Origin: Verrucomicrobiaceae bacterium | GTDB lineage: Bacteria; Verrucomicrobiota; Verrucomicrobiia; Verrucomicrobiales; Verrucomicrobiaceae | DNA length: 64,000 nt | NCBI GenBank assembly: GCA_016795485.1 | Contig: JAEUHM010000041.1 | Location: forward strand, 434,001 to 498,000 | Reading direction: 5' to 3' | Part shown: positions 3,250-54,821 of the stretch, in pieces | Layout: each line of letters starts with the position of its first letter | Position numbering within the stretch: position 1 is the first letter of the stretch | Notes under the pieces: model-generated | Databases searched by the model: none | What the model saw: the letters and a program-made list of their open reading frames with translations, nothing else | What the model was told of the DNA's origin: nothing | Made by a program: the position numbers and the translations under genes

Positions 3250-4938
3250 TTAGCGGCCTGACTTCTGGGCGGTGTTGCTAAACAACGCTGCTTGGTAACG
3301 CACCAGCGCATCACCAATAGCAGCAGCTAACCCATTCTGATAAGTGGGAGACGCAATCAATGATCCGTCCTTCGAGTTGGTCACGAACCCACCCTCAAAG
3401 AGGATGCCTGGACGATTGCAGCCGGTAAGCACGGACCATCGCGCACGTTTGATGCCACGATCCACCAGCTTGTAGCGATGAATAACCATGGCGTGAACTG
3501 CCGTGGCCAATGCGATATTCTCTGCATCGCGAATGTTACCAGTGAAGGCTCGGTTATCCCAATCTCGCGTGCCCATTGAGGTCGATGAGCTTCCCTGCGG
3601 CGTAAGCGCAAAGGTCTCGATGCCGGAAGCAGCCGAACCACCGGAGTTGAAGTGCAAGCTGACGAAGATGCTGTTGGGAATGCTATTGGCAAACTGTGCC
3701 CGACCACCCAACGAGATAAATCGGTCATCCTGGCGCGTCATGACCACTTTGAAACCCCGTTTGATGAGCGCTGCCTTCACCGCGTGAGCCAGTTGAAGCG
3801 TGTACTGTTTCTCATAGCCGTAGATGCCCTTGGCCCCAGAATCATGGCCCCCATGCCCTGCATCAATGATCACCGTATCAAAGGGCCGCCCTTGCGTAAT
3901 CAGCCAAGGACGAATCACCGGGTCGAGCAGCTTGCTGAGATCCACGCGCGAAACACACACCTTCCCTTTCAGAGTCGTGATGGGGTAGCTCATCACAAAC
4001 TTGATGTTGTTGATCAATAGATCCTGGCTGCCAACGCGGCCCTTCAAAAACATGGTGGGATTCCTGAACCAGAGCTGTTCGCCGCTCACCTTGAACTCAC
4101 TAAACCGATAGAACGCATGGATGCTCTCAGCAGTGACCCAGTCCATCCCACCTGATTGGTAAATCTGCCACGCTGCCGGAGCGGCTGGCAAGTCTTGCGT
4201 GACGGTAGGGGGCGGGGGCGCTGATCCCGTTGCTTTGGTGCCTGCCTTTGGCGTGGGCTCATCATCGTTTTTCAGCGTGGCGAACTCGGAGTCCAAGTTC
4301 ATGTCCACACCGGCATTGGCTGCAGGTACTGGGGGAGTGAATGCAGATTCTTTCGTGGACTCAGACTTAGATGAAGCCTCAGCCATCTTGGGCTCCACCG
4401 CTGCGGGCACAGACGCAGTGGGTGCATTCACTTTCGGCACCACCGTCGCCTTCACGATCATTTCCTTCGGCACGGGCGGGCCCATTGGAGACAAATCAGG
4501 AGGCCCCATCGGCGGAAGTTGAGCCGTCGTGGCTTCTTTTTTGCCTTTTTCTTCGGTCTTTGCTGCGTTTGCCACCGGCGGTGGTGCTTTTTCTTCCGTC
4601 GGAGCCTTCATTTGTGGCTTCGGCGTTTCCTTTGGCACCGTTTTGCTGGCGGCGGGCTTCGACTTTGCGGTGGAGGCTTTGGAAGTACCGGAACTCTTGG
4701 ATTTGGTGCTTAGCGGTGCTGCTTTCGGCTTGGGTTTGGGCTTCGGAGCCTCTTCTTTCTTTGGCTCTGGCGGGGGAGGAGGGGGCGGAGCCTCCTCTTT
4801 TTTGCCCAGCCCAACCACTCGCTTCATTTTGTCGAACCAGCCCTTCTTCTCGCCTTCCTCAGCGCCAAAAGCAGCGCCAACTGCCACCATAGTGGCAACG
4901 AAAAGCGTCGGCAGCGCGTGTTTCCTGAGGCTGAACAT
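3250..4938 (-). CDS. N-acetylmuramoyl-L-alanine amidase (Amidase_3) with long Pro/Lys-rich N-terminal region
   Basis: 562 aa. A signal peptide (MFSLRKHALPTLFVATMVA...) is followed by KKGWFDKMKR and about 200 residues of low-complexity Pro/Lys/Ala/Glu sequence, including a polyproline run. The C-terminal catalytic domain starts near residue 355: VIIDAGHGGHDSGAKG (zinc His), RFISLGGRAQFAN, FVSLHFNS (second zinc His) and GILFEGGFVTNSKDG (catalytic Glu). These are the hallmarks of AmiA/AmiC-type zinc amidases that cut the lactoyl-peptide bond in peptidoglycan. The disordered linker would let the enzyme reach through the wall. Divergently transcribed from the symporter gene at 5050. Confidence 0.9.
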   Translation of the reverse strand: MFSLRKHALPTLFVATMVAVGAAFGAEEGEKKGWFDKMKRVVGLGKKEEAPPPPPPPEPKKEEAPKPKPKPKAAPLSTKSKSSGTSKASTAKSKPAASKTVPKETPKPQMKAPTEEKAPPPVANAAKTEEKGKKEATTAQLPPMGPPDLSPMGPPVPKEMIVKATVVPKVNAPTASVPAAVEPKMAEASSKSESTKESAFTPPVPAANAGVDMNLDSEFATLKNDDEPTPKAGTKATGSAPPPPTVTQDLPAAPAAWQIYQSGGMDWVTAESIHAFYRFSEFKVSGEQLWFRNPTMFLKGRVGSQDLLINNIKFVMSYPITTLKGKVCVSRVDLSKLLDPVIRPWLITQGRPFDTVIIDAGHGGHDSGAKGIYGYEKQYTLQLAHAVKAALIKRGFKVVMTRQDDRFISLGGRAQFANSIPNSIFVSLHFNSGGSAASGIETFALTPQGSSSTSMGTRDWDNRAFTGNIRDAENIALATAVHAMVIHRYKLVDRGIKRARWSVLTGCNRPGILFEGGFVTNSKDGSLIASPTYQNGLAAAIGDALVRYQAALFSNTAQKSGR

Positions 4939-5049
4939 TTTGGGGGGGGTCGAAACGAGCGTTAATCACTAGCCGCAGAAACTCGAGATTCAAGAGCGGC
5001 ATGAACGGGTCTTGCGCTGACGTTCGGCTTTCTCGTATCCTTCGCTCTT

Positions 5050-6540
5050 ATGATGTCCCGCTTCTCCCTTCTGGATTATGTGATTTTCGTGGCCTACTTG
5101 GCCGCATCCGTCGGGGTGGGCCTGCTTTCAGCCCGTGGCTCAAAGTCACTAGGAGACTATTTTTTGGCAGGTCGTGGCATGAGCAGCATCGTGGTGGCGA
5201 TGTCCGTCCTTGCGGCTCTTTTTTCAGGTATCAGCTACATCGCTGGGCCTGCAGATGTGTATCAGAATGGCTTCGCTTTTGCCTACGTGGTGCTCGCGTT
5301 TTTCATCGCCACTCCCTTCACCGCCAACTGGATGATGCCCTTGTTCTACAACTCGCGGTACTTCACGGCCTACCAGTTCTTGGAGGAGCGATTCTCCCGC
5401 ACGGCACGCCTTTTGGCTTCCGGGCTTTTCATTTTTCGCGTCTGCCTCTGGCTTGCAGCAGCCACCTACGCTCCAGCTCTGGCCTTGGAAAAAGTAACCG
5501 GAATGCCGCTATGGCTTACGATTCTGGCGTCTGGAACACTCACGACACTCTACACGGCACTGGGCGGGATGAAGGCTGTCATCTGGACAGATGTCATGCA
5601 GTTGATCGTGCTGTTTGGCGGCCAGTTCATCATTGTGTTAGTGGCTGTGGGTAAAATACCGGGCGGCATTGCCACGGTATGGGAAACTTCTGTGAATGAT
5701 GGTCGCCTCAACTTGAGCCTCTCCTTCAACATGGCGGACCGGGTCAATTTGGGGGCTGTTTTGATCGCCGGAGCATTCCTGCATCTAGTGCAGATGGCCA
5801 CGGATCAAGTTTCCGTTCAGCGTTATCTCACGGCCGGGAGCCTGGAAGAAGCCCGCAGGTCCCTGTGGCTCAAGTTGTGGTTCATCCTGCCGGTTCTAGT
5901 GCTCTTCTATGGCACGGGGCTAGTGCTTTATGCGTTTTACAAGCAACACGGTGATCCACTGGCCGCTGGATTAATCCAAAAAGCAGACCAGATACTGCCC
6001 TACTTCGTGATCACCGAGCTGCCATCTGGGCTGCCCGGTTTATTGATCGCCGCAATCTACGCTGCCAGTATGTCCACCATCTCAGCTGGTCTTAACTCGC
6101 TCTCTTCTGCGACCATCATGGACTTTCAGTCGCGGAAAAGCAGTGATGCCAATTCAGCTAATACTCAACTGGGCCGCGCACGATGGATTACGGTGCTCTA
6201 CGGCATTCTGGTCATGGCTTTTGCCTTCCTTGTCTCCCTCATGAGTGGAAATCTGGTTGAATCCGTAAACACGATCATCGGTCTCGTGGGGGGGCCGCTG
6301 CTTGGACTGTTCTTCTTGGGCATGTTCACCCAATCTGCCACCGCGCGTGGTGCGCTTTGGGGCTGCCTGATTGGGTTCGCCTCGCTGCTGATGATTTATC
6401 TCTATCAAAATGGCATCCTCACCCGCGAAAAGCCCGCACAACTTGTTTCGTTTGTCTGGTTTAGCCTGTTAGGATGTGCTATCACGATGATTACTGGCCT
6501 TATCGCCTCAGCCCAGCAGCCAAAACAAGGCACTGCTTAG
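5050..6540 (+). CDS. Sodium:solute symporter (SSS/SLC5 family)
   Basis: 496 aa, hydrophobic throughout with about 13 predicted membrane helices. The N-terminus (LLDYVIFVAYLAASVGVGLL, then GDYFLAGRGMSSIVVAMSVL) and the TM region GISYIAGPADVYQNG match the sodium-solute symporter family. ATDQVSVQRYLTAGSLEEAR is the SSS signature region. Substrates in this family include sugars, sialic acids, myo-inositol and carboxylates. The two adjoining ATG codons at 5050 and 5053 are both possible starts. It is convergent with the SDR/SDR/amidohydrolase gene set ending 2 bases downstream, which may metabolise the imported compound (inference). Confidence 0.9.
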   Translation: MMSRFSLLDYVIFVAYLAASVGVGLLSARGSKSLGDYFLAGRGMSSIVVAMSVLAALFSGISYIAGPADVYQNGFAFAYVVLAFFIATPFTANWMMPLFYNSRYFTAYQFLEERFSRTARLLASGLFIFRVCLWLAAATYAPALALEKVTGMPLWLTILASGTLTTLYTALGGMKAVIWTDVMQLIVLFGGQFIIVLVAVGKIPGGIATVWETSVNDGRLNLSLSFNMADRVNLGAVLIAGAFLHLVQMATDQVSVQRYLTAGSLEEARRSLWLKLWFILPVLVLFYGTGLVLYAFYKQHGDPLAAGLIQKADQILPYFVITELPSGLPGLLIAAIYAASMSTISAGLNSLSSATIMDFQSRKSSDANSANTQLGRARWITVLYGILVMAFAFLVSLMSGNLVESVNTIIGLVGGPLLGLFFLGMFTQSATARGALWGCLIGFASLLMIYLYQNGILTREKPAQLVSFVWFSLLGCAITMITGLIASAQQPKQGTA

Positions 6541-47587: not shown

Positions 47588-48391
47588 ATGCTTTGGGACT
47601 TCCTGCAGAAACACTGGCGGGACGGCGTGGAGATCTTCATCCTCGCTGCCTTGGCCTATCATGGGTACCTTTTCTTCAAGGCGACCCGTGGTGCCCGCAT
47701 TTTGACGGGCCTGCTGGTGCTGTTGTTGAGTTTGGCCCTGATTTCGCAGTTTCTGCAACTCACCGTCATCAGTTGGTTGTTGCAGCGGTTGTCCGTGTTC
47801 CTCGCCATCGCGCTAGTCATCATCTTCCAGCCGGAGTTGAGGCGCGTCCTTGCGGAGTTAGGCAGCCAGCGGCTGTTCAGCTTCAATCGACCCGATGACC
47901 GCTCCCTGGATATGTTGATCGAGGCCATGGTGGAGCTTTCTCACAAGCGAGTGGGCGCGCTCATCGCCATCAAACGCAGCATCGACATGAAGCAGTTTGC
48001 CGAAACAGGCGTGGAAGTGGATGCCATCATCTCCCGCGAGCTTCTAGGGACCATTTTTCATCCAAAAACACCCCTGCACGATGGCGGCGTGATCGTGGAC
48101 CAAGGCCGCATCCTCGCCGCGGGCTGTGTTTTCCCCGTGTCACAGCGCGAGGTGAGAAACCGCGCGGTAGGCCTGCGGCACCGCGCCGCAATGGGCGTCA
48201 CGGACGAGACCGATGCGGTCGCCCTCATCGTCTCTGAAGAAACAGGAGCACTTTCGTTAGGCTACCGCGGGCTACTTTATCACGACCTGAGCCCAGAAGA
48301 CGTGCGGGAGAAGCTCAACTCGGTGCTAACCACAGGAATGATCGATGACAACGACGACCACAAAGACGAACCCACCCGCGAACTGGCCTAG
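47588..48391 (+). CDS. cdaA: Diadenylate cyclase CdaA (c-di-AMP synthase)
   Basis: 267 aa. Three N-terminal membrane helices (EIFILAALAYHGYLFF; ILTGLLVLLLSLALI; LSVFLAIALVIIFQPELRR) precede the DisA_N catalytic domain: AIISRELLGTIFHPKTPLHDGG, LRHRAAMGVTDETDAVALIVSEETGALSL. The RHR motif is intact. The usual DGA reads DGG. The enzyme makes c-di-AMP from two ATP at the membrane. Its last 47 bases overlap the CdaR-like stub, and glmM lies further downstream, recalling the cdaA-cdaR-glmM order of other bacteria. Confidence 0.95.
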   Translation: MLWDFLQKHWRDGVEIFILAALAYHGYLFFKATRGARILTGLLVLLLSLALISQFLQLTVISWLLQRLSVFLAIALVIIFQPELRRVLAELGSQRLFSFNRPDDRSLDMLIEAMVELSHKRVGALIAIKRSIDMKQFAETGVEVDAIISRELLGTIFHPKTPLHDGGVIVDQGRILAAGCVFPVSQREVRNRAVGLRHRAAMGVTDETDAVALIVSEETGALSLGYRGLLYHDLSPEDVREKLNSVLTTGMIDDNDDHKDEPTRELA

Positions 48392-48548
48392 AGAAGTGCG
48401 GCTGATGGTCACGCGGAACTGGAAGGTCAAACTCCTGGCCATCGTGCTAGCGTTTCTGTTCTGGCACATCGTAAAGAGCGAGATCCGGCAACTGCCCTTG
48501 CCGAGCTTCACGGAGGAGCACTCGTTAAAGCAGTCCAGCGGGCTGTAG
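48345..48548 (+). CDS. Short CdaR/YbbR-like membrane stub
   Basis: 67 aa, overlapping the cdaA end by 47 bases. NWKVKLLAIVLAFLFWHIVK is the kind of single N-terminal membrane helix that opens CdaR/YbbR proteins, and the position directly after cdaA is where cdaR is found in cdaA operons. The extracytoplasmic YbbR repeats are absent: only 27 residues follow the helix. Eight bases after the stop a REP-like palindrome begins. It is either a mini-CdaR or the remnant of a truncated gene. Confidence 0.6.
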   Translation: MTTTTTKTNPPANWPREVRLMVTRNWKVKLLAIVLAFLFWHIVKSEIRQLPLPSFTEEHSLKQSSGL

Positions 48549-48555
48549 TAAGGGC

Positions 48556-48617
48556 TCGTAGTTCGAGCTTCAGCTCGTTCCCCGAGCCTCCTGAACGAGC
48601 TGAAGCTCGAACTACGA
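48556..48617. repeat. Large REP-like palindrome (25-bp arms, 12-base loop)
   Basis: Arms at 48556-48580 and 48593-48617 are perfectly complementary. The core starts GTAGTTCGAGC and ends GCTCGAACTAC, and each arm contains an internal GAGCT/AGCTC symmetry. GTAG at one end and CTAC at the other fit REP elements mobilised by RAYT transposases. It sits between the CdaR-like stub and the caspase/FGE gene. No RAYT gene is in the window. Confidence 0.75.
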
Positions 48618-48723
48618 ACTCCGCTGGGCAGGTTCGGACAAAGAACCACTTTTTCCCAATCAAATCCCCGTCTCCGGCGATAGGACTGGCACACTCCTTG
48701 TTCTCCACTTTACTCTCACCCCC

Positions 48724-50367
48724 ATGAAAGCTGCTCTCTGTGCCCTGCTCCTAGCTCCATGCTCCATGCTTTTGTCTGCTGAAAAGGCCGCGTTGGTCAT
48801 TGGCAACAGCGCCTACCCGGATGAGGCGGGTGGCGACTACGGGGACCTGCCAAATGCAGTGCGGGATGCTAGGCTCATGAAGACGACTCTGGAGAGCGTA
48901 GGTTTCAGCGTGGTGTATGCGGAAGACGCCACCAAGTCCGTGATGGATGAGAAGCTCACGGAGTTTGAGAACAAGATCAGCAAGGGCGGCACGGCAGTCA
49001 TCTATCTGGCGGCACATGGCATCGAGTTTGAGAAGCGGAACTACATCCTCTGTAGCAATGCCAAGGGCAAGGCACGCTCGCGCTTGGGAGAGGAGTCCAT
49101 GGAGGCAGAGACATTCGCGGTGGCCATGCTCTCGGCGGGTGCCAGTCAGTCCTTTTTGTTTCTGGACTGCTGCCGGGAGAAGCCGGCTGCCGAGTGGGTC
49201 ACCCGTGGACGCTCCAGTGGAGGCCTGGAGGACATGAAGATCACCGGAGACATCATCATCTCCTTTGCGGCACGTCCGGGAGAGAACGCACAGGACCAGC
49301 CACTCGTCAGTGGAGCAGGCGTCCTAAAAAACAACGGTCCCTACGCCCAAGCCCTGGCCAAGTGGATACCCGCCGGAGTGAAACACAGTGAGATGTTCGA
49401 CAACATCCGCATTGAGGTAGACACGCTGACCAGCGGCCAACAGCGCACCTGGGAGAGCGGGAGCATCTTGAGGCCGTTTTTCTTTGCGAAAGGGGGCTCG
49501 ACTGCCCCTCCCGTGCAGGTGGCCAAGATGGTGCCATCCGTACCGACACTACCCGAGCCACCCGCAACCCGTAGCGGCACTCCAGCCACCGCCACCAAGG
49601 ATGCCCCGTTTGTGAACGGCCTGGGCATGAAGTTTGTGCCGGTGTTGAACTACAAGGACGGCAAGAGAGTCCTCTTCAGCATCTGGGAAACACGGCGGCG
49701 GGACTATGCAGCGTATGCAGTGCAGAACATTGGAGTGGATACGGAATGGGAGGCCCAGGAATACAAAGGTGTGCCTATAGGCCAGGAGACTGACCATCCC
49801 GTAGTGAGTGTGAGCTGGGCGGATGGCAAGGCCTTCTGCGCATGGCTGACGAAGACGGAGCGTGAGGGAGGACGCATCGGCGCACAGGATGAATACCGTC
49901 TGCCGACGGACGTAGAGTGGAGCTATGCGGTGGGGATAGGAGACAAAGAAGACGCCAGTGCCAGCCCGGAGGCAAAGAATGCTAAAATAGCCGCAGTGTA
50001 TCCCTGGGGAGGCGACTTCCCACCTACGGGGAAAGTGGGAAACTATGCAGATGACGCGGCTAAGGCAAAAGACACTGCCTTTCTTGGCTACATAGAGGGC
50101 TACAACGATGGCTATGCCAGGAGAGCGCCAGTGGGAAGCTACCCAGCCAACCGATACGGCCTTTACGATCTCGGGGGCAATGTTTGGGAATGGTGTGAGG
50201 ATTGGTACAATGCTGAGCAAAAACACCGTGTTTTGCGCGGCGGTTCCTGGGTCGACCACGTCGGCGACTTTCTGCTCTCGTCCGGTCGCCTCATCCGCAC
50301 GCCCGACTATCGCAGCAGCGACTACGGTTTCCGTTCTGTCTTAGTGATTGGCGGTGTTTCCCCCTAG
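48724..50367 (+). CDS. Exported caspase-like (peptidase C14) protein fused to FGE-sulfatase/C-type-lectin-like domain
   Basis: 547 aa. A signal peptide (residues 1-18) is followed by a caspase-fold domain: KAALVIGNSAYPDE, LPNAVRDARLMKTTLESVGF, VIYLAAHGIEF (catalytic H98) and FLFLDCCREKP (catalytic Cys C150; LDACR in many relatives). From about residue 300 comes a formylglycine-generating-enzyme-type domain: GLGMKFVPVL, HPVVSVSWADGKAFCAWL, YRLPTDVEWSYAVG, GLYDLGGNVWEWCEDWY and RVLRGGSWVDHVGDF...YGFRSV. Caspase-FGE fusions are known targets of diversity-generating retroelements. Codon choice shifts toward T-ending and CGY codons near 50155. It occupies the expected cdaR-glmM junction. Confidence 0.9.
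   Translation: MKAALCALLLAPCSMLLSAEKAALVIGNSAYPDEAGGDYGDLPNAVRDARLMKTTLESVGFSVVYAEDATKSVMDEKLTEFENKISKGGTAVIYLAAHGIEFEKRNYILCSNAKGKARSRLGEESMEAETFAVAMLSAGASQSFLFLDCCREKPAAEWVTRGRSSGGLEDMKITGDIIISFAARPGENAQDQPLVSGAGVLKNNGPYAQALAKWIPAGVKHSEMFDNIRIEVDTLTSGQQRTWESGSILRPFFFAKGGSTAPPVQVAKMVPSVPTLPEPPATRSGTPATATKDAPFVNGLGMKFVPVLNYKDGKRVLFSIWETRRRDYAAYAVQNIGVDTEWEAQEYKGVPIGQETDHPVVSVSWADGKAFCAWLTKTEREGGRIGAQDEYRLPTDVEWSYAVGIGDKEDASASPEAKNAKIAAVYPWGGDFPPTGKVGNYADDAAKAKDTAFLGYIEGYNDGYARRAPVGSYPANRYGLYDLGGNVWEWCEDWYNAEQKHRVLRGGSWVDHVGDFLLSSGRLIRTPDYRSSDYGFRSVLVIGGVSP
50236..50340 (+). other. Candidate variable-region-like C-terminal segment
   Basis: The end of the FGE-like domain (RGGSW ... PDYRSSDYGFR) matches the shape of variable regions in retroelement-diversified proteins. 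Twenty of the 28 codons from 50251 to 50334 are NNC. No template repeat or reverse transcriptase is visible here, so this remains a resemblance. Confidence 0.3.
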
Positions 50368-50484
50368 TTCTGGCTCAGTGTTACATTGTTTCGCCCAATG
50401 CTCCCCCTTCAGCGCCTTTCCCAAGTTTGTGGACGCAAAGTTCATCTCGCTACCAGCCAAATCAGCACGCAGGACAAACTGTTG

Positions 50485-50503
50485 CCTGGCTCTGTGAGCC
50501 AGG
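50485..50503. other. Small hairpin upstream of glmM
   Basis: CCTGGCTC-TGT-GAGCCAGG forms an 8-bp stem with 3-base loop, 128 bases before the glmM start. No T-tract follows, so it is not a standard terminator. The rest of 50368-50631 shows no gene or known riboswitch. Confidence 0.35.
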
Positions 50504-50631
50504 AGGCGTGAGACAACACCCCGAGCGCAAGGCCATGAACCCCCAACCCGCCCGCTGCCTCACACAGAGGGCCTACAGTCGGTGCCCAGCCTTTGACATT
50601 GCGTCTCTCCTGCGGTAAACCCGGCCTCTTC

Positions 50632-52002
50632 ATGTCACAGGAAAAACGCCAGTTCTTCGGCACCGATGGTGTCCGCGCCGTAGCCAATCGCCATCCGATG
50701 ACCCCCGAGTTCGTCATGCGGCTCGGGCAGGCGGCGGCAGTCGTCCTCGGAGCCAAAGCAGGGCCGGGAGAGAGGCCTAGTTGCATCGTGGGCCGAGATA
50801 CTCGCGCCTCGGGTGAGATGCTGGAGGCTGCACTGGTGGCTGGGCTCAACTCTGCGGGTGTGGATGTCTACCTCGCGGGTGTGGTGCCCACTCCTACCGT
50901 GGCCATGCTGACGGCAAAACATCGCAAGGGCTTCGGCGTGATCGTTTCCGCCTCTCACAACCCCTTCCATGACAATGGCATCAAGTTCGTGCATGGCGAT
51001 GGCCACAAGCTGAACGACAAGACGGAGCTGGCGATCGAGAAGATCGTGCTCGGGAACTCGGAGTCGCCTGTGCCTCGCCCAGAAGGCCGTGGATTGGGTC
51101 GGGTGCATCGCATTACCAGCGCCATCGACGAGTATGTGGAGCATGCGCTCGCAAGCATGGGCGGAGTGAAGTTGGACGGCATGACCATCGCGCTGGACAA
51201 CGCGCACGGAGCGGCCTCGATCACCTCGACTCGCGCACTGGAAGCGCTCGGAGCGGATGTGCGGGTGTTTCACTCGGAGCCAGATGGTTTTAACATCAAC
51301 GAAGACTGCGGCTGCACGCATGGCGAGGAGTTGGAGCGCCTCGTGAAGCAAACTCAGGCTCACGCGGGCGTGGCTCACGATGGAGATGCGGACCGCATCG
51401 CTCTCTGTGATGAAAACGGCATCGTCGTGGACGGAGATGAACTCATGGCGATCGCCGCCGAGTCCATGCTCCGCAAAGGCACGCTCAAGCAGAACACCAT
51501 CGCCGTAACCATCATGTCCAACTACGGCTTGGATGATCTCGTGTCTGGCCTAGGCGGCAAAGTCATCCGCACCAACGTGGGTGATCGCTACGTGCTGGAG
51601 GTGATGCGGGAGAAGGGGCTCAACTTCGGCGGTGAGCAGTCTGGGCACATCATTTTTGGCGACTGGGCGACGACCGGAGATGGCCTCATCGCGGGGCTGC
51701 AAGTCCTCCGCATCATGAAGGAGACGGGCGAGCCGCTGTCTCAACTGCGGAAGTGCCTGAAGAAGTTCCCACAGGCAGCACGCAATCTCCGTGTCAGCTC
51801 CAAGCCGCCCACTGCGGAACTCATAGAGGCCACCAAGATCATCAAAGAGACCGAGAAGAAACTCGGGGACTACGGGCGCGTGCTCCTGCGCTACTCCGGC
51901 ACCGAGCCGCTGGTGAGATTGCTCATCGAAGGCAGAGACGTCGAGTATCTTGAGTCCCAAGCAGACAAGATCGCCTCTGCCATTCTCGCTCAGATCGGCT
52001 AA
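50632..52002 (+). CDS. glmM: Phosphoglucosamine mutase GlmM
   Basis: 456 aa from the ATG at 50632, matching the family start (QFFGTDGVRAVANRHPMTPEF). The active phosphoserine lies in VIVSASHNPFHDNGIKF, the Mg loop in VAHDGDADRIALCDENG, the sugar loop in NFGGEQSGHIIF and the phosphate loop in RYSGTEPLVRLLIEG. It interconverts glucosamine-6-phosphate and glucosamine-1-phosphate for peptidoglycan synthesis. It follows cdaA and the CdaR-like stub with the caspase/FGE gene between. Its stop overlaps the convergent FG-GAP gene by four bases. Confidence 0.97.
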   Translation: MSQEKRQFFGTDGVRAVANRHPMTPEFVMRLGQAAAVVLGAKAGPGERPSCIVGRDTRASGEMLEAALVAGLNSAGVDVYLAGVVPTPTVAMLTAKHRKGFGVIVSASHNPFHDNGIKFVHGDGHKLNDKTELAIEKIVLGNSESPVPRPEGRGLGRVHRITSAIDEYVEHALASMGGVKLDGMTIALDNAHGAASITSTRALEALGADVRVFHSEPDGFNINEDCGCTHGEELERLVKQTQAHAGVAHDGDADRIALCDENGIVVDGDELMAIAAESMLRKGTLKQNTIAVTIMSNYGLDDLVSGLGGKVIRTNVGDRYVLEVMREKGLNFGGEQSGHIIFGDWATTGDGLIAGLQVLRIMKETGEPLSQLRKCLKKFPQAARNLRVSSKPPTAELIEATKIIKETEKKLGDYGRVLLRYSGTEPLVRLLIEGRDVEYLESQADKIASAILAQIG

Positions 52003-54821
52003 CGCCGGACAATGGCTTTCACTGTGTCCGGGAAGGTCACCACGGCTGTGGAGACTGGCTGCGTGGTGCTGCCGCCGACACAGTGCTGGAGCCCAGTGTT
52101 GCCCGCACCCGAGCTATCGCGGAAGAACGATGGCACAGAGATGCTGGCGATCTTTTCGCGGCCAGGCAACAGGGAGAAACGCATTCCTTTGCGCATCAGG
52201 GCGCGCGGCAGGTAGTCCGAGGGCGAGTTGGAGTTGCTGTTGCTGATGTCGCCTACCATCCACGCGAGATTGTCAGCGGCAGTGGCCCCACGCTTCTCTG
52301 GCTTCAAAGTGACGAGCACACCGTAGCTCGATGCAGCGGAAGTGAACGCCATGTCCACGGCTCCAAGTGTGGCAATGCGTCCGCCCTGGCCATCTGGCAT
52401 GATGTCTCCCTCCCTGAGCAGGACGATGGTCGCGTCTGGCAAGGGTGCCCTTAGCACGTGCACGACCAGTACGGTGTCATTGGCGGGCGTGACGCCTGCA
52501 CCACTCACTGTGGCAAGCACGAGAATGTTGCCTCGATTGTCGATGCCGTATTCGAGGAATCGTTTCCACCTGAGAGAAGTTCCGGGGATGATGTCTCCTT
52601 TGCGGGCAAACTGTTTGATGCCGACACTCTCCACATTGCTGTAGAGCGCCTCGTTGTTCGCCGGCGTGACACCTTTGGTTGCATCCAAGACCAAGGTAGC
52701 ACGGAACAAATAAGTGCGTGCCATCGTTCCATCCAGCCCGGTGTGGCCGAGGAAGCTGGAATACTGAGGTGAACTCGTCGTGGCTGCTCCGGTGGCGTCT
52801 GGTGCAAACGATCCGCTGAGCACGAGTGTGGCTGCATTGCTGACGAAGATGCCGGAGGTCACTGGTGTGCTCTGGATGAAGCCGCTGTAGATGCACTGAG
52901 CTGAGTCTGCGAAAGAAATGCGTCCACTGAACTCACCGTGTTTGCCAAGGCCGGGCATGGGCACGTTATCAATACCTTCCCGGACATAAGCTACTCCAAG
53001 CGTGAAGATCGCAGAGTCGCTCGCAGGCGTGACGGGCGTAGCGCCGGTGCCAGCACGCAACTTGAGTGGCATTCCCAGGAAAAGGCCTGTTTCAAACGGC
53101 GCGCGTGACTCACCGATCGACTTCACCGCTACGTTTTGCAGGGAGGGATAAGTGGCGCTGGAGTTGTCGATGACTTTTACCACCCCAGTGGCTACTCCGC
53201 CATCGGAGTAATACTGAGAAGTCACGCCACTGGCGTCTGTCATGCGCATGAAGAGATCCAGCGGGCTGTTGGACAAAGGGCGGAACACCTTTTTCCCAGT
53301 CTCCGTAGAGCTAAACGGCGGCATGCCCATGTTCACTGGCGTGTTTGCCACGGCAACTGGGATGGGACCAAACCCGCTCTGCAAGGTGCTCCAGAGACCG
53401 TGGTTCTTTCCACCAGCAGTGCCAGGACCCGTCATGCTGGCGATGTAGCTCACGCCGTTGAAAGCGGTGAGCTCTCCGAAGCCGGAGAAGCTGGCGGTTC
53501 CAGATGCGAGTGCTGTGGTCTTGGTAGATGCCAGCACCTGGAACATCCCCGAAGCATCATGTGCATACGGTCCCGCCTTCCACACAGCACCACTATCAGG
53601 TCCCGCCACGTCATCACCTGGTGCACCGCCTAACACAAAACCGTCTGGCGTGACACCGACCGAAGAACCGTACCTGCCTCCGACTCCCGATGCCATGGCA
53701 GTAAGCTGATCCAGGGTCCGAGCCCGATGATCCAGCACCACGACAGCGCCGTGATCCATCACCGGCTGACCAAGCCCTGGCCCCGGTGGTGTGTAGTCGG
53801 CTCCGAGGATGCCCACGGCTGTGATCCCATTGCAAGTGGCCACTGCGGCTCCCACATTTTGATTCGGCGCGCCATCAATCCCACCCAAGCGAGCCTGAGG
53901 TGACGTGGGAATGGTCACATCATAAAGATAGGCGCTTCCGGCATTAGGCCCCGGAGTCATGCCGGTGCTCGCAGTGAACGGGGCACCCACGACCAGGAAG
54001 GCATCGTCCATGCTCACGCAGAAGCCATACTGCCCCGCTGCACCCATGCCTTTAGGGTCCGAGAGAAGCACGATCGTCGAACCTCCGACCGCATCAAACA
54101 ACAGCACGCGGCCATCCCCTGAGTTGGAACCCGGTGCGCCTGCGGCCACCATGCCCTTCCAAATCGCAACAGAGGTTCCGAACTGGCGCAAGTCCAACCC
54201 AGAAAACACGGACACGCCCACAAGGGTGACTAACGCGGAGTCGGCACGGATGCTGTAGGTCTCCACCGCACCCATGTTTGACGCTGCAAGTGTGTCATCA
54301 AAACCGGGCGCGCCAAAAACGACCGTATCTCCCTCGATAGCCACGGATTTGCCCCAGTTGTCATCAGCGGAAGGAGTCTCAGAAGGCTCGATTTTGCGGA
54401 CCAATGCTCCAGTGTCGATGTTGTATAGGTAAACAGCACCACGCTTGCTCACGGAAGCGGTTCCCCACTCTGGGGAACCCACCACGAGCATGTTCCCGGA
54501 CACAGCGACCGCCTCACCGAATCGTCCGCCCGTGATGCCATCAGCAGGATAGATGGTGCGCAGAAGCTTGTGGCTCTTGGCATCAAAAACATGGACGCCG
54601 CCTGTCTGAAGCGTGGTCCCTGCAATCGTGCGAGTCGCAAGCGGCGAGCCAACCGCGATCAGGCCATTGGCACTTGCCACCGAGTGACGGGGCTCTCCGA
54701 TGAACTCGCCGGCATGATTGCCGGGCGGGGTGATGCGGACGTTAGGAGTGAGTCCGGCAGCAAACAAACTGGCAGCGCTCAAAAGAGCGGCAAGGTGCAG
54801 ATAGATTGGCTTTACTTTCAT
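51999..54821 (-). CDS. Large exported FG-GAP/integrin-like propeller protein
   Basis: 940 aa with a signal peptide (MKVKPIYLHLAALLSAASLFAAG). The N-terminal 400 residues contain repeated FG-GAP-like units, for example FGEAVAVSGNMLVVGSPEWG, WGKSVAIEGDTVVFGAPGFD, FGTSVAIWKGMVAAGAPGSN and YGFCVSMDDAFLVVGAPFTA. The C-terminal half carries repeats around GVTPANNEALYSN, GAGVTPANDTVLVVHV and GATPVTPASDSAIFTLG, each followed by a REGD- or KGD-like strand. This looks like a surface or secreted adhesion or structural protein; no enzyme motif is seen. Likely monocistronic. Confidence 0.8.
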   Translation of the reverse strand: MKVKPIYLHLAALLSAASLFAAGLTPNVRITPPGNHAGEFIGEPRHSVASANGLIAVGSPLATRTIAGTTLQTGGVHVFDAKSHKLLRTIYPADGITGGRFGEAVAVSGNMLVVGSPEWGTASVSKRGAVYLYNIDTGALVRKIEPSETPSADDNWGKSVAIEGDTVVFGAPGFDDTLAASNMGAVETYSIRADSALVTLVGVSVFSGLDLRQFGTSVAIWKGMVAAGAPGSNSGDGRVLLFDAVGGSTIVLLSDPKGMGAAGQYGFCVSMDDAFLVVGAPFTASTGMTPGPNAGSAYLYDVTIPTSPQARLGGIDGAPNQNVGAAVATCNGITAVGILGADYTPPGPGLGQPVMDHGAVVVLDHRARTLDQLTAMASGVGGRYGSSVGVTPDGFVLGGAPGDDVAGPDSGAVWKAGPYAHDASGMFQVLASTKTTALASGTASFSGFGELTAFNGVSYIASMTGPGTAGGKNHGLWSTLQSGFGPIPVAVANTPVNMGMPPFSSTETGKKVFRPLSNSPLDLFMRMTDASGVTSQYYSDGGVATGVVKVIDNSSATYPSLQNVAVKSIGESRAPFETGLFLGMPLKLRAGTGATPVTPASDSAIFTLGVAYVREGIDNVPMPGLGKHGEFSGRISFADSAQCIYSGFIQSTPVTSGIFVSNAATLVLSGSFAPDATGAATTSSPQYSSFLGHTGLDGTMARTYLFRATLVLDATKGVTPANNEALYSNVESVGIKQFARKGDIIPGTSLRWKRFLEYGIDNRGNILVLATVSGAGVTPANDTVLVVHVLRAPLPDATIVLLREGDIMPDGQGGRIATLGAVDMAFTSAASSYGVLVTLKPEKRGATAADNLAWMVGDISNSNSNSPSDYLPRALMRKGMRFSLLPGREKIASISVPSFFRDSSGAGNTGLQHCVGGSTTQPVSTAVVTFPDTVKAIVRR

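Follow-up and report, generated by a model that had tools for sequence, protein, structure and literature searches.

The block at 48549-50590 of the 64,000-nucleotide stretch of Verrucomicrobiaceae DNA analyzed here (the window) is, we consider quite likely, a lineage-specific insertion that set the gene for a predicted exported orthocaspase-CLec protein between cdaA and glmM. The insert would have carried the caspase-FGE gene and its upstream region into a gap between two separate units, the first formed by cdaA and the one-helix partner and the second by glmM under a promoter of its own, and the REP pairs at its edges, or recombination at these pairs, may have helped the move. The arrangement is a one-off, at a point where two transcription units are only loosely connected. 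The caspase gene itself looks to be a bystander that comes from a dispersed gene family and has no particular tie to c-di-AMP or GlmM. Genes that seem to be newly linked in an operon can be neighbors by chance.

The insert and the REP pairs at its edges

All five elements named in the initial annotation (cdaA, a single-helix ORF, a palindrome, a caspase-FGE gene and glmM) were found in place. The cdaA gene (47588-48391, + strand) encodes a membrane diadenylate cyclase of 267 aa (TIGR00159 CdaA, 217.9 bits, cut-off 188.8; Pfam DAC and CdaA_N) and glmM (50632-52002, + strand) a phosphoglucosamine mutase of 456 aa (TIGR01455, 536.7 bits, cut-off 447.6), the identity of both being defined by passing the NCBIfam equivalog cut-offs. 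The homologous ATG of glmM is at 50632; the ORF list starts the gene at a TTG at 50593. Between the two genes lie a CdaR-like single-helix stub of 67 aa (48345-48548, + strand) and the inserted block of about 2.04 kb, which comprises REP pair 1 (48556-48617), the caspase-FGE gene (48724-50367, + strand, 547 aa) and REP pair 2 (50478-50581). An Rfam search gave no match. Tail to tail with the end of glmM lies the gene for a 940-aa protein with FG-GAP repeats and DUF7453 (51999-54821, - strand).

From the end of cdaA to glmM the window has 2,244 bp, compared with 146-636 bp across 30 other genomes, of which 25 belong to the same family; in a 26th family genome (G017) the two genes are adjacent but split over two contigs. 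In 7/33 family relatives glmM lies away from cdaA, as seen within one 8.2 Mb contig in G011 and judged from different contigs in the other six. No caspase-FGE match was detected beside cdaA among the relatives' cdaA loci that were fetched. The left edge of the insert is the stop codon of the stub, and the right edge, at 50590, directly precedes sequence common to relatives, with the promoter-like element of glmM resuming at 50591 and kept intact beside the insert; no target-site duplication was seen. Comparison of these loci supports the reading of 48549-50590 as a lineage-specific insertion that placed the caspase gene between cdaA and glmM; the relatives compared all belong to other genera.

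The suggestion of a cargo insertion next to a REP element was thereby supported: the caspase gene is found only here and in none of the relatives examined, many of which have the empty arrangement, and each edge of the insert carries a REP pair. An ancestral arrangement had been tied to two observations, the lack of an intact cdaR and the presence of the caspase gene in most relatives. The first was made, in that no relative examined has an intact cdaR; the second was not, and it is because the caspase gene was not found in relatives that the insertion reading stands. The cdaA-glmM gap is about 550-600 bp in two relatives (G012, locus L054, and G002, locus L055). By eye, the gap of G012 holds a short YciI-like ORF, which suggests that other small insertions may occur at the cdaA-glmM joint.

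The palindrome with 25-bp arms proved to be real and consists of an inverted pair of GTAG-tagged REPs (REP pair 1). Its arms (48556-48580 and 48593-48617, with a 12-nt gap) are 100% complementary over 25 bp, the fold z is about -9, and the arm sequence gave 20 matches in the genome at up to 3 mismatches compared with 0 in the reversed control. REP pair 2, a BIME-like second repeat that the initial annotation had missed, has a degenerate left tag (GTTG). Both pairs are dispersed, GTAG-tagged palindromes in inverted orientation, and copies flanking a RAYT gene were found for REP pair 2 only: contig C41 carries a Y1 transposase gene with relatives of this repeat on either side, and the gene passes the NCBIfam cut-off for a REP-associated tyrosine transposase (RAYT). 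The best other copies in the genome match REP pair 1 at about 91-93% over 68 bp and REP pair 2 at about 75% over 101 bp. The RAYT gene on contig C41 of the window genome (G000, L184:844-1981) is flanked by five copies of a GTAG-tagged REP. GTAG REPs and RAYTs are already known, including from Verrucomicrobia (PMC3733652). The inverted GTAG-tagged pairs and the copies flanking a RAYT gene are as described for known GTAG REPs and REPINs (PMC3733652, PMC3116915); in contrast to these, two unlike pairs here bracket one gene.

The REP pairs may have contributed to the move of the caspase gene, either themselves or through recombination at them. That the REP pairs and a RAYT together carried the gene as a composite mobile unit would account for the pairs at both edges and for the RAYT in the same genome flanked by relatives of the right-hand repeat. 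This is nonetheless unlikely, since the two edges carry different REP families, no copy of REP pair 1 lies near any detected Y1_Tnp gene, and repeats of neither type were found at the caspase paralogs on contig C18 described below; independent REP insertion into new intergenic gaps would give the same picture. To our knowledge, no RAYT has been shown to move cargo genes.

The CdaR-like stub and the predicted glmM promoter

The stub ORF starts within the end of cdaA and has no Pfam or NCBIfam match. In position, as the initial annotation noted, and in an N-terminal motif it agrees with the first helix of a full-length CdaR; one-to-one hhalign gave E 4e-5 and a probability of 42%, a weak match by sequence alone. 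In nearly every family relative with a readable locus, cdaA is followed by an ORF of 50-134 aa (motif RNW.EK...LAFLFW.(M/I)IK) that usually overlaps the end of cdaA, and the same short stub is present in loci from a second collection. The C-terminus of the window stub (HSLKQSSGL) resembles that of its nearest relatives, G016 and G009 (HGLKEQSGL), which argues that the stub is intact to its own stop codon. The YbbR domain (PF07949) was detected in 0/57 genomes, comprising the window genome and 56 others, with a control search positive in Bacillus subtilis and others. In G010 (L048), G011 (L050), G001 (L051) and G018 (L053), CdaA and the CdaR-like single helix are fused in frame, yielding proteins of 325-328 residues in which one chain carries both parts. 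The stub had been read as a truncated cdaR; that the caspase gene cut it short was ruled out, because nearly all readable relatives carry a stub of the same short form and the C-terminus is common to G016 and G009. Judged by sequence comparison, the stub is the ancestral, normal form of the gene in the family and no relic of the insertion. In this family, CdaR is a single membrane helix, in some genomes fused to CdaA.

The predicted glmM promoter (TTGACA-N17-TAAACC, 50593-50621, + strand) is conserved. The glmM ATG is preceded, at a distance of 37-43 nt (mostly 38), by the element CTTTGAC(A/T)-N17-TA in the window and in 31/33 family relatives, the exceptions being G006 and G007; G014, counted among the 31, has G as the sixth base. 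All seven genomes in which glmM lies away from cdaA retain the element, and the pattern TTGAC(A/T)-N17-TA(A/C/G) has a single match on both strands of the 64-kb window, at the glmM site. With this promoter predicted from conservation, glmM is probably its own transcription unit, and the insertion would have been tolerated because of it. The conserved promoter element is a general point for glmM in the family.

The initial annotation had placed the caspase gene inside a cdaA-cdaR-glmM-like operon, which is probably not the case, given the conserved predicted promoter of glmM and an insert that ends just before it; the three genes are also not adjacent on one strand, as the 2.04-kb block separates the stub from glmM. 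No strong terminator was found between the stub and the caspase gene; the scan gave three terminator-like sites, a number no higher than chance, and the weaker site at 48631-48647 falls within this chance level. REP pair 1 was ruled out as an intrinsic terminator, as no T-run follows the palindrome. A sigma-54-like site (TGGCACACTCCTTG, 48687-48700, one match in the window) lies 37 nt before the caspase start and was set aside as its promoter because of a mismatch in the -12 element and its absence from paralogs. The caspase gene is inferred to be transcribed on its own, and read-through from cdaA is possible.

The order of cdaA, a CdaR-like membrane partner and glmM is the same as in the Firmicutes cdaA-cdaR(ybbR)-glmM operon (PMC6368335). 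In contrast to that operon, the partner in the window is one helix without YbbR domains, glmM has a conserved promoter element of its own and the two are separated by a foreign gene. The same query fetched Firmicutes loci in which a gap of about 1,230-1,490 bp accommodates a full CdaR; the first helix of that CdaR resembles the stub, weakly by profile comparison alone.

A wall-stress module using c-di-AMP signalling had also been proposed, in which the exported caspase-FGE protein senses wall stress and forms one operon with c-di-AMP synthesis and GlmM. The shared strand and order fit such a module, as does the failure to find a strong terminator between the stub and the caspase gene, but we regard it as very unlikely: the pairing of caspase gene, cdaA and glmM was seen in a single genome, a conserved predicted promoter precedes glmM, which in 7/33 family relatives is not linked to cdaA, and the upstream motif of the caspase gene is common to paralogs elsewhere in the genome, not to cdaA. 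An assembly artefact is more improbable still. Repeats at both edges and a draft genome of 61 contigs would allow a false join, but the REP copies in the window differ from all others found and would for this reason be poor bridges for a misjoin. Least credible is a caspase gene in the family ancestor that was lost elsewhere, which would agree with the presence of caspase-FGE homologs throughout the order but needs many independent precise losses, each restoring a short gap and an intact promoter.

Origin of the caspase-FGE gene

With insertion as the preferred reading, the gene it brought in is best read, from domain trees, as a relocated, chimeric orthocaspase-lectin sensor gene. The same genome holds further caspase-FGE genes, and five caspase genes lie on one stretch of contig C18. 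The caspase-domain tree places the window gene and the C18 copy at 135 kb together as sisters (69% identity, support 98/95); in the FGE-domain tree, however, the window gene groups with copies from G008 (95/99) and the C18 sister falls in a separate deep group. Because the two trees disagree, the FGE half has been exchanged in either the window gene or its C18 sister. At the search settings used, the genome gave 3 matches to the upstream motif CAATCA-N8-TCTCCGGCGAT, one before the window gene (48657-48682, + strand) and the others at two C18 paralogs; the pattern comes from those same sequences, and its point is its rarity elsewhere in the genome. Three of the five caspase genes in the C18 cluster (135-147 kb, L185:5397-17595) carry FGE domains of different types, and upstream sequences are common to several of the five.

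The caspase-FGE protein and a retroelement target in a relative

The N-terminus of the caspase-FGE protein is signal-peptide-like, and export is predicted. The caspase half (Peptidase_C14, E 6e-22) gave a good structure model, in which residues 17-257 match the fold of MALT1 and caspases with Z of about 25 (MALT1, Z 25.3), consistent with a caspase p20 fold. H98, D148, C149 and C150 are invariant among 11 homologs, in keeping with a His/Cys catalytic dyad. By sequence, the FGE half (FGE-sulfatase, E 1e-35) matched SUMF2, FGE and Treponema variable protein 1; the structure model was poor in this half. The copper-binding active-site Cys pair that FGE has in its C-terminal GGS... segment was not found, with no Cys between GGSW and the C-terminus. 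PADLOC returned a weak generic caspase match only. From its domain content and homology, the protein is most likely a ligand-sensing exported protease. Located in the periplasm or outside the cell, it would act as a ligand sensor whose FGE domain, of putative CLec fold and lacking the FGE cysteines, controls the His/Cys caspase protease.

Other phyla are already known to have caspase-FGE proteins and orthocaspase targets of diversity-generating retroelements, or DGRs (PMC3501461, PMC7517822). The window protein resembles metacaspase-FGE-sulfatase proteins (Asplund-Samuelsson 2012, PMC3501461), which have the order Peptidase_C14 then FGE and often an N-terminal helix, possibly a signal peptide. 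The window gene differs from these in its genomic placement and in an FGE half of a type seen as a DGR target in a relative.

That relative is G031, in which a DGR targets a homolog of the window gene (39% identity), with the template repeat (TR) at L190:3711-3852 and the variable repeat (VR) at 3415-3556. TR/VR differences fall at template adenines in 23/23 cases, and the reverse transcriptase lies about 0.6 kb further on (4429-5430). The end of the window gene has the same layout as the G031 VR: a VR-like C-terminal segment (GGSW...GFR, 50244-50346, + strand) aligns with both the VR and the TR of the G031 DGR. In this segment 22/25 codons end in C/T compared with 254/501 in the rest of the gene (p 1.5e-4); a similar bias was seen in two G008 copies and in G054, and fold constraints may add to it. 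Searches of the window genome found no second copy of the segment that would represent a template and no RVT_1 (draft 99.87% complete). A live DGR acting on the window gene was ruled out, as the genome has neither template nor reverse transcriptase.

It is possible, although we put this forward tentatively, that the window gene is a frozen former DGR target whose retroelement was lost, whose sensor half was swapped and which moved beside glmM; the family's exported orthocaspase-lectin sensors would be diversified by DGRs in some species and by domain swapping and dispersal in others. The variable proteins of cyanobacterial orthocaspase DGRs (PMC7517822) have a caspase-like N-terminus joined to a C-terminal CLec domain, an architecture that the window protein probably shares. 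The window genome differs from those systems in having no template or reverse transcriptase, whereas its same-family relative G031 has a complete DGR on such a gene. With a caspase-FGE protein diversified by a DGR in this relative, the idea of ligand-triggered bacterial caspases becomes testable in Verrucomicrobiota. The complete G031 element (L190:698-5430) consists of an ECF sigma factor gene upstream, an unknown protein, the caspase-FGE gene, the TR and the reverse transcriptase.
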